The notes beneath the pieces are model-generated. The model had not been told where the DNA came from, ran no database searches, and worked only from the letters and a program-made list of their open reading frames with translations. A stretch of DNA of 64,000 nucleotides from the NCBI RefSeq assembly GCF_021917145.1, contig NW_025813761.1, forward strand, positions 124,001 to 188,000, in the 5' to 3' direction. The position numbers and the translations under genes were made by a program. Positions 6,509-8,874 of the stretch are shown in pieces. Numbering within the stretch: position 1 is the stretch's first letter; each line of letters opens with the position of its first letter. This DNA comes from Hypomesus transpacificus. Taxonomy: Eukaryota > Chordata > Actinopteri > Osmeriformes > Osmeridae.

Positions 6509-8874
6509 ACCTGCAAACACGGCACGCACATCTACACACACACACACACACACACGTACCTGCAAACACGGCACGCACATCTACACACACACACACGTAC
6601 CTGCAAACACGGCACGCACATCTACACACACACACACACACGTACCTGCAAACACGGCACGCACACTTACACACACACACACGTACCTGCAAACACGGCA
6701 CGCACATCTACACACACACACACGTACCTGCAAACACGGCACGCACATCTACACACACACACACGTACCTGCAAACACGGCACGCACATCTACACACACA
6801 CACACGTACCTGCAAACACGGCACGCACATCTACACACACGCACACGTACCTGCAAACACGGCACGCACATCTACACACACACACACGTACCTGCAAACA
6901 CGGCACGCACATCTACACACACACACACGTACCTGCAAACACGGCACGCACATCTACACACACGCACACGTACCTGCAAACACGGCACGCACATCTACAC
7001 ACACGCACACGTACCTGCAAACACGGCACGCACATCCACACACACGCACACGTACCCGCAAACACGGCACGCACATCTACACACACGCACACGTACCCGC
7101 AAACACGGCACGCACATCTACACACACACACACGTACCTGCAAACACGGCACGCACATCTACACACACACACACGTATCCGCAAACACGGCACGCACACT
7201 TACACACACACACGTACCTGCAAACACGGCACGCACACCTACACACATACCCGCAAACACGGCACGCACACCTACAGACACACGTTCGCCTACCGACATG
7301 GCACCCCAACACCTCCGCCACTCGCACACACAGCCTAATGACCCTCCTCCTCTCCTCTGGGAGGTTTTTGCTCGTCGGCCGTGTGGCCTAGATCACGTCT
7401 CTCCTCTTCGCTCAATCATGCTTATGGTCGGGTTTTTTTCCCCCGCTGATAAGTAGCTCGAACTCTCACCGCTCTGAGGGTCACTTCCCCCCCCCCCCCA
7501 CACACCCTGGCTCCCATCATGCTCTCTGTCTACTGTGTGTGTGTGGGGGGGCTCTCCTCCTAGCCCAGGCCAAGGGGGGGGGGGGGGGGCTTGTGGCACG
7601 TCCAACTCAAGTGACTGTACTAACAGCTTGTGACTCGAGATGGCATGTTTGCTGTTGGTCACTTTGATGCTTTTTTGTGGGGGTAAACATTCACCCTGCA
7701 GGTCCATCTGCATCGTAAACAACACGTGTCCCTTTTATAGGTATTTGTTGGCTTCTTTGGTTGGTATTTTACAGTGTAACCGAGAAGAAAAGGCCGTTGA
7801 GGTTTATTGACGTGACGCATGGTTGCTAAGCAGCATGTGGAGGGGCATTGTTGTTGCCAGGTGGTGGTTATCGTCCCTGACGACGGTTCTCAGAAAAGAC
7901 AGCTGTCAAGGTCCCCCCCCCCCCCCCCCCCTCGTGCTGCCTGACTGCCCCTTCTCCCCCCCCCCCACACTCCTCTCCTCCACCCTGTACGATTTCCCCC
8001 CCTGTCTGCATCCCATAACCACCCCTCACCCTCCTTCCCTCCCTCCTTTCTCGGTGGACCCTCAGCGCTCAGACCTGACCCCTGAGGTGACCCCTGTAGC
8101 TTGGTCTGTTCCTCTCTCCTAAGTTCCAAATACCATGCAGGAGACCCCTCCCATATCCCACCAGCTCCCGGACTTACCTTCGATCCTCTCTGAGGCAGAT
8201 CAGGACTGTATCAATCAGAGGGTGTCCTGTCTTACCTGACCTGGCCAGCAGGGGGCTGTAATGCTGCAGGGTTCAGCATGCCTGTCTTACCTGACCTGGC
8301 CAGCAGGGGGCTGTAATGCTGCAGGGTTCAGCATGCCTGTCTTACCTGGCCTGGCCAGCAGGAGGCTGTAATGCTACAGGGTTCAGCATGCCTGTCTTAC
8401 CTGGCCTGGCCAGCAGGGGGCTGTAATGCTGCAGGGTTCAGCATGCCTGTCTTACCTGGCCTGGCCAGCAGGGGGCTGTAATGCTGCAAGGTTCAGCATG
8501 CCTGTCTGACCTGGCCTGGCCAGCAGGGGGCTGTAATGCTGCAAGGTTCAGCATGCCTGTCTTGCATGGCCTGGCCAGCAGGGGGCTGTAATGCTGCAGG
8601 GTTCAGCATGCGTGTTGCTCACAGGTTGATGTTGGTGTCTAAACTGGATTTTATTGTAAGTGTCTCTGTTTATTTCTCCCTCTTCCCCTCCTCCTCCTCT
8701 CTCTGTCTCTGTTTACAGTTGCAATTCTTGCAGCACCAAATGCCGCCGCAGCAGCAAATGGCTATGGGGGCGTCGGCGGGGGCACCGCAGGGGGCGTCGC
8801 CACGGCAACATACCGCCAGCCAGCCAAGAAGTAAGAGGAAGCGGAGCACGCCTCAGCCACTCCCCAAATCATGA
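369..8874 (+). CDS. supt20h: SUPT20H (SPT20 homologue, SAGA subunit), C-terminal part
   Basis: Partial gene; the 5' exons lie left of the window. Coding exons from splice sites: 369-538, 1108-1140, 1338-1452, 1703-1808, 2318-2473, 2640-2949, 3492-3604, 3754-3809, 4322-4420, 4910-5003, 6028-6113, 8719-8874 (TGA 8872-8874). They join in one frame over 497 codons. The first exons read [14 protein letters not shown], then [18 protein letters not shown] and CQVKMSH, which I recognise as the middle of SUPT20H/FAM48A. The rest is a low-complexity Ser/Thr/Pro- and Gln-rich tail ([19 protein letters not shown]), ending in a basic [13 protein letters not shown]. The family is a SAGA coactivator subunit acting in the nucleus; the SPT20 domain proper would lie upstream. 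Nearly every intron is filled with micro- or minisatellite. Identity also fits the neighbours: EXOSC8 and SUPT20H are adjacent in human. Exon limits are by eye; alternative use of the small exons is possible. Confidence 0.88.
565..919 (+). repeat. 19-bp minisatellite in supt20h intron
   Basis: Tandem array of TCTGGGCTGGGGCTGGAAG and shorter variants (TCTGGGCTGGAAG), about 18-20 units, beginning about 27 bp after the exon end at 538. As 3 x 19 = 57, all frames stay open and give repeating [21 protein letters not shown] products that are not real proteins. Confidence 0.92.
1860..2090 (+). repeat. (CT)n-rich intron tract
   Basis: Imperfect TCTC/TGTCTC array within the intron between supt20h exons 1703-1808 and 2318-2473. 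The long Ser/Leu and Arg/Glu open frames here are shadows. Confidence 0.85.
2957..3365 (+). repeat. 13-15 bp minisatellite (TGTCTGGTCTCTC)n
   Basis: About 28-30 units of TCTGGTCTCTCTG with small length changes fill the intron between supt20h exons 2640-2949 and 3492-3604. It starts within ten bases of the donor. Confidence 0.9.
3812..4040 (+). repeat. CCCCTGACCCCT-type minisatellite
   Basis: Array of CCCCTGACCCCTCAC-like units starting next to the donor at 3810. It is C-rich on this strand, so the opposite strand carries regularly spaced G-runs. Confidence 0.9.
4428..4715 (+). repeat. (CA)n / CTCTCACACACA compound repeat
   Basis: CA-rich array with a higher-order pattern of CTCTCACACACACA units, immediately downstream of the supt20h donor at 4421. 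Confidence 0.9.
5690..6020 (+). repeat. CCCCTCTGCCCCTCCCT low-complexity array
   Basis: Pyrimidine-rich minisatellite with CTCTGCCCCTCCCTCCC units, running into the acceptor of the supt20h exon at 6028. Confidence 0.88.
6130..7290 (+). repeat. (CA)n plus ~41-bp minisatellite in last supt20h intron
   Basis: Begins as (CA)n with interspersed TCTACACACA. From about 6402 it becomes a tandem array of about 20 units, settled at a 41-bp period between about 6682 and 6930. Each unit carries CGTACCTGCAAACACGG followed by CACGCACATCTACACACA and CA repeats. Unit length varies through the CA part. A 664-codon open frame across it is a repeat artefact. Confidence 0.92.
8226..8610 (+). repeat. Seven-copy 55-bp tandem repeat carrying CTCF-like motifs
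   Basis: Units start at 8226, 8281, 8336, 8391, 8446, 8501 and 8556, exactly 55 bp apart with few substitutions. Each holds TGGCCAGCAGGGGGCTGTA (the third copy has GGAGGC), which matches about 16 of 19 positions of the commonly drawn CTCF motif (TGGCCACCAGGGGGCGCTA). All copies point the same way. The array lies in the last supt20h intron, about 110 bp before the final coding exon. CTCF binding is inferred from the motif only. Confidence 0.9.

Follow-up and report, generated by a model that had tools for sequence, protein, structure and literature searches.

Does a short tandem repeat that carries a strong CTCF-like word in every unit mark a place where chromosome folding is anchored, or is it simply a minisatellite that happens to span such a word? 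The question is raised by a locus near the convergent ends of the supt20h and exosc8 genes of Hypomesus transpacificus. It lies in a stretch of 64,000 nucleotides (hereafter the window, whose coordinates are used unless a contig position prefixed C93 is given). A sequence-only reading of the window had noticed seven same-strand motifs resembling the vertebrate CTCF motif, spaced at exactly 55 bp, and had proposed that they arose by tandem duplication and might form a CTCF cluster or domain boundary. Here we describe the structure and origin of the array, the strength of its motifs, the orientation of neighbouring sites and the occurrence of comparable arrays in the rest of the genome, and we weigh the explanations that these observations permit.

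Structure and origin of the array

The feature in question is the following:

8226..8610, plus strand: minisatellite of seven 55-bp units, consensus CCTGTCTTACCTGGCCTGGCCAGCAGGGGGCTGTAATGCTGCAGGGTTCAGCATG (defined by repeat period; 9 substitutions, no indel, no CpG)

Tandem Repeats Finder (TRF), applied to the window, reported positions 8226-8615 with a period of 55, 7.1 copies, 96% matches and 0% indels, and a repeat search gave six successive unit spacings of exactly 55 bp each. Together with the common strand of the motifs, these results bear out the number, orientation and spacing that had been read from the sequence. The seven complete units amount to 385 bp, in which the 9 substitutions from consensus fall in 7 columns, the mean pairwise divergence is 4.3% per site and the CpG count is zero. 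With near-identical units arranged head to tail and a unit length within the range of about 10-100 bp, the array qualifies as a minisatellite. Units 1 and 2 are identical and a single variant is common to units 5 and 6, which fits stepwise duplication. It is evident that the array originated by tandem duplication of one CTCF-type site, multiplied with a fixed period, and the earlier proposal of such an origin is supported. A 110-bp probe from the array found only its own locus when run against the 437-Mb assembly; the search passes over very common words and is non-exhaustive for repeats. Within the window only 10-11-bp words of the unit recurred among the matches listed, and the viral contigs scanned yielded 0 exact matches.

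CTCF-type sites within the units

Sites were scored with a reconstruction of the JASPAR CTCF matrix MA0139.1, for which the maximum is 26.1 bits. Each unit contains one site:

8242..8260, plus strand: CTCF-type site of unit 1, 19.91 bits
8297..8315, plus strand: CTCF-type site of unit 2, 19.91 bits
8352..8370, plus strand: CTCF-type site of unit 3, GGAGG variant, 16.70 bits
8407..8425, plus strand: CTCF-type site of unit 4, 19.91 bits
8462..8480, plus strand: CTCF-type site of unit 5, 19.91 bits
8517..8535, plus strand: CTCF-type site of unit 6, 19.91 bits
8572..8590, plus strand: CTCF-type site of unit 7, 19.91 bits

The 19-mer TGGCCAGCAGGGGGCTGTA is found at 8242, 8297, 8407, 8462, 8517 and 8572, and unit 3 (8352) carries TGGCCAGCAGGAGGCTGTA, so that the six GGGGG cores and one GGAGG core counted by eye are confirmed, as is the close match to the vertebrate motif. 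The sequence-only reading had named low matrix scores as an outcome that would speak against it; with the reconstructed matrix the scores are high. It had also named methylated, unbound repeats, an outcome that fits poorly with a 385-bp array devoid of CpG. By motif alone, then, there is a CTCF site in each of the seven monomers, and the seven sites of 16.7-19.9 bits within about 350 bp constitute a CTCF motif cluster as judged with the reconstructed matrix.

Of nine sites scoring at least 16.6 bits in the window, seven are in the array, whereas 100 dinucleotide shuffles of the window gave a mean of 0.32 such sites and a maximum of 3. None of 500 column-permuted matrices reached 19.9 bits in the unit, and among 8,000,000 random 55-bp tandem units simulated with the second-order composition of the window, 109 contained a site of at least 19.9 bits. 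All seven sites derive from a single ancestral site and therefore count once against chance. The core resembles the published consensus CCACCAG(G/A)GGGGGCC, whose G run is longer (PMC12885311). The T at motif position 16 is the only clearly poor letter (-3.7 bits) and counts against CTCF binding, as does the weakness of the sequence upstream of the core:

8227..8236 (unit 1; same place in the other units), plus strand: possible weak upstream element CTGTCTTACC, 5 bp 5' of the 19-mer, partial match to CTGCAGTTCC

A CAGCTGTTCC-like upstream element has been described 2-7 bp before the core (PMC12885311), and we accordingly looked for a 10-mer like CAGCTGTTCC or CTGCAGTTCC at 2-7 bp before TGG, the place of the ZF9-11 element. 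At a 5-bp linker the match to CTGCAGTTCC is 6/10 in units 1-5 and 5/10 in units 6-7. Once six linkers and three forms are admitted, 25% of the window positions sampled match equally well, and the element does not clearly exceed background. Taken together, the motif evidence gives good support to reading the units as putative CTCF sites. Five of the units also bear, on the minus strand, CAGGTAAG, a strong 5' splice-site word (8231, 8286, 8341, 8396 and 8451).

Gene surroundings

The flanking coding sequence was read as follows:

8719..8874, plus strand: supt20h, presumed last coding exon (preceded by a pyrimidine tract and AG; frame open to the stop codon 8872-8874; provisional gene name)
9953..10054, minus strand: exosc8, C-terminal end of the coding sequence; stop codon 9953-9955 (peptide identified by inspection; upstream exon matches RRP43)

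We take the frame 3' of the array to be the SUPT20H C-terminus; a PDB search with this presumed end gave no match. Peptides 1.2-2.4 kb to the left of the window (window positions -2406 to -1193) presumably represent the SUPT20H N-terminus, and the penultimate exon was sought and not found. For exosc8, the peptide of an upstream exon matches RRP43 (EXOSC8) in the PDB with E=7.9e-9, and the gene lies on the minus strand, convergent with the presumed supt20h. The earlier placement of the array in the last supt20h intron, near these convergent ends, stands as far as tested for its position between the two genes; that it lies within the last intron is likely.

Farther along, smad9, rfxap, dclk1, a ccdc169/sohlh2-like gene and spart are names that we assigned by eye from open frames. 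A tRNA match to Rfam (43.9 bits, 22329-22401, plus strand) lies upstream of the frame read as smad9. Three UnaL2 LINE 3'-end elements were also found with Rfam, at 13792-13846 on the plus strand and at 62438-62491 and 63362-63415 on the minus strand. A long complex tandem repeat with periods of 21, 42 and 135-156 bp occupies 60948-62099 and is overlapped by a 321-codon open frame (60853-61818).

Orientation of neighbouring sites

Sites of at least 14 bits were mapped over about 200 kb of the contig (C93:24001-223935, beginning after its first 24 kb). The three nearest to the array on its right are:

10698..10716 (C93:134698), plus strand: single CTCF-type site in the orientation of the array, 16.36 bits
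14460..14478 (C93:138460), plus strand: strongest single CTCF-type site of the window, TGGCCACAAGGTGGCAGTG, in the orientation of the array, 21.84 bits
27174..27192 (C93:151174), minus strand: CTCF-type site, 18.35 bits

The site at 14460-14478 has exosc8 on one side and the frames read as smad9 on the other, and that at 27174-27192 overlaps the frame read as the coding end of the smad9 MH2 domain. All four sites to the left of the array are on the minus strand (C93:40120, 92621, 96785 and 119833), and the nearest of these, C93:119833 with 16.2 bits, points left, away from the array. To the right, two plus sites (134698, 138460) are followed by four minus sites (151174, 170737, 201915, 205877) and two plus sites (211536, 216963), such that the array opens a rightward-pointing group which faces a leftward-pointing one. 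With 13 labels, the array being counted once, four or fewer orientation runs occurred in 5.6% of shuffles (P=0.056), which is non-significant. Two pairs of sites (92621/96785 and 40120/211536) have identical 19-mers and may be repeat copies, making their independence doubtful. Both the run test and these possible copies were counted against the explanation that we favour below.

Comparable arrays in the assembly

The idea that the array is without parallel was rejected. By the 110-bp probe its unit looks unique, but its kind is not, as the 437-Mb assembly contains 28 arrays of the CTCF core. Arrays were sought as three or more words at 28-58-bp steps and grouped by eye, with the array places on C14 near 16.69 Mb merged into one and likewise those on C9 near 2.87 Mb. 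The core CASYAGGGGGC gave 88 matches in the 28 arrays, and the reversed pattern, which contains CpG, gave 8. Scored on their printed strings, 13 of the 28 arrays reach at least 16.7 bits and four reach at least 19.9 bits. By this measure the array near supt20h ranks fourth; since three loci (L022, L023 and L024) hold higher sites when taken whole, its true rank is lower. A less strict word, CAGGGGGC, gave more matches, three copies at 28-58-bp steps occurring in 920 overlapping matches against 25 for the reversed, CpG-containing pattern. Repetition of this word was rejected as a mark of CTCF sites, because only one of the 15 such arrays listed (on C1-C3) reaches 16 bits and one more reaches 14.

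Ten loci (L018-L027, on C20, C45, C28, C78, C4, C13, C12, C286, C3 and C16) were picked for score or copy number, nine of them from the 28 arrays and the tenth being the CAGGGGGC-word array at C3:524 kb. In each, 5-20 sites scoring at least 13 bits share one orientation, usually, though not throughout, with a uniform step. Examples are L018, with eight sites of up to 23.8 bits at 36-bp steps, and L027, with twenty sites of 15-16 bits mostly at 31-bp steps; like these two, L019 (37 bp) and L020 (27 bp) have co-oriented CTCF-type sites, as in the supt20h array. Outside the motif the units seem unrelated: in a comparison of 22 of the 28 arrays (that is, without C23:18222025 and five with printed steps of 15-20 bp, on C3, C6, C22 and twice on C14), a word of 8-10 bp, with E up to 0.05, is common to both spacers in three of the 231 pairs. 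We therefore take the arrays to be independent in origin.

Do CTCF motifs seed minisatellites? Mutated control words also form arrays, with 13 for CTSYAGGGGGC, six for CASYTGGGGGC and four for CASYATGGGGC. The genome has 3146 copies of the CTCF core, 999 of CASYTGGGGGC and 726 of CASYATGGGGC, array copies included, which corresponds to 8.9 arrays per 1000 copies for the core and to 6.0 and 5.5 for the two controls (pooled 5.8, P=0.31). This normalised test covered the last two words. CTSYAGGGGGC is itself compatible in part with CTCF, with 19.35 bits in one of its arrays, and its 13 arrays could mean a rate as high as that of the core. With a non-significant normalised rate relative to the two control words, the idea that CTCF motifs seed minisatellites was rejected for want of evidence. 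The class of arrays is real, but random tandem duplication of CTCF sites as common as these would produce roughly this many, so that CTCF-word arrays need no special cause.

A proposed polar anchor and its alternatives

On balance we favour, by a modest degree of belief, the explanation that CTCF binds the array and that the array acts as a rightward-facing polar stop for cohesin. On this view an intronic CTCF-type site of supt20h was duplicated, along with 55 bp of its surroundings, to yield the seven-copy minisatellite, and CTCF would most likely be bound at some units at least. The array itself is best accounted for by a neutral birth and not by selection for CTCF. In favour of the anchor, besides the motif scores, their controls and the lack of CpG, all four sites to the left are minus and the next two to the right are plus. 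Because all motifs run in the same direction, bound CTCF would turn its N-terminus to the side of exosc8 and smad9 and halt cohesin that approaches from there. The array would then be a polar anchor occupied more often than one site, and it might also insulate. The N-terminus of CTCF is reported to face the 3' side of the motif, on which cohesin-dependent protection extends about 15 bp past a 19- or 35-bp footprint (PMC12081859). The larger sum, 35 + 15 = 50 bp, is less than the 55-bp period, which makes the joint filling of adjacent units sterically conceivable. Modelling predicts that impact rises with the number of strong inserted sites, and experiments cited in the same source found no insulation from arrays of sites taken from non-boundary places (PMC11828424). 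Zebrafish TAD boundaries are described as showing clear use of CTCF motifs, preferentially in convergent orientation (PMC8438036), clustered CTCF sites in mammals as showing double footprints and enrichment at TAD borders (PMC4562119, PMC6945661), and the tandem CTCF sites of the Pcdh and globin loci as insulators (PMC7087399).

A tentative but serious alternative, to which we give decidedly less weight than to an even chance, is that of an ordinary neutral minisatellite lying by chance over a CTCF-like word, with CTCF binding absent or inconsequential. Tandem repeats abound on the contig, of which 200 kb gave 189 TRF rows of period 10 or more (some overlapping), the core forms arrays at a rate (8.9) that does not differ significantly from that of the two mutated words (5.8, P=0.31), and substitutions between units do not significantly avoid the motif, with one of the 7 variable columns inside its 19 bp (P=0.22). 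Against this alternative, the array alone among the 189 TRF rows has a consensus site of at least 12 bits, and seven strong CpG-free sites would be unlikely to stay unbound if the chromatin is open. A third explanation goes further than the polar anchor and is compatible with it, namely that the array is a true domain boundary, forming a divergent pair with C93:119833 around supt20h and pairing rightward with the minus sites C93:201915 and 205877, to enclose exosc8-spart. The order of orientations (four minus, the array and two more plus, four minus, two plus) agrees with this, and in mouse the Tfap2c-Bmp7 TZ, from which STITCH was taken, is described as two divergent CTCF arrays (PMC7200164). 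We regard it as unlikely, since so few runs arise with P=0.056 from sites that are perhaps non-independent, and a high-confidence CTCF site is reported for 46-48% of zebrafish boundaries, about half being without one (PMC8438036).

The unit could also serve something else, such as antisense 5' splice sites or another zinc-finger factor. Five of the window's six minus-strand copies of CAGGTAAG are inside the array, and INSM1 is among several factors that bind GGGGG. The CTCF match extends over 19 positions, against 8 bases for the splice word, which is lost in units 6 and 7, and we consider such a function very improbable. Returning to the polar anchor, its broadest extension is that CTCF-site minisatellites are, in this genome, a recurring, fast-evolving class of independently formed, length-tuned polar anchors, of which the supt20h array would be one such boundary. 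We think this improbable; if it were true, anchor strength would follow copy number and boundaries could differ between individuals by repeat length.

Significance and comparison with known systems

Near-identical, co-oriented CTCF sites at a constant spacing are a natural parallel to the arrays that have been inserted to probe how site number and spacing affect boundary strength. The genome has at least 13 strong arrays, with steps of 21 to 55 bp (as given by TRF or read from the printed strings) and varied copy number, natural alleles of which could show such effects. In the literature searched, by titles and the openings of abstracts and with most subscription journals outside its scope, no CTCF-site minisatellite was described from fish.

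Several mammalian systems share part of the organisation seen here. The human SLC6A4 VNTRs, reported to be regulated by CTCF, have short, variable units (16-17 and 22-23 bp) and share with the array, in our case by motif, an association with CTCF (PMC2848977). Tandem CTCF sites inside transcribed genes are described for the DXZ4, FIRRE and ICCE macrosatellites, with those of Dxz4 in one polarity, again like the array; unlike it, DXZ4 has a CpG-rich unit of about 3 kb, YY1 paired with CTCF and roles on the inactive X (PMC6985041). Close spacing is likewise common to the array, to 2xCTS elements, which have two or more close CTCF motifs each (PMC4562119), and to the CTCF clusters at TAD borders, whose sites are less than 10 kb apart (PMC6945661). 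The last two were defined by ChIP-seq and, in the available text of both sources, are not described as single-unit tandem repeats, whereas the array is known from its motifs. The closest known kind is DXPas34 at the mouse Tsix locus, in which 34-bp monomers are each described with a CTCF site (PMC3149622). Both are minisatellites of short period with a CTCF site per monomer (in our case by motif), but DXPas34 is rich in CpG, lies on the X chromosome and is described as regulating X inactivation, while the supt20h array has a 55-bp unit without CpG and is known as a sequence. That the array is DXPas34 itself, with its CpG-rich 30-34-bp monomers, is ruled out by its unit length and its zero CpG. 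Judged by motif, the supt20h array, one of several in this genome, adds to the already known minisatellites that have a CTCF site in every monomer.
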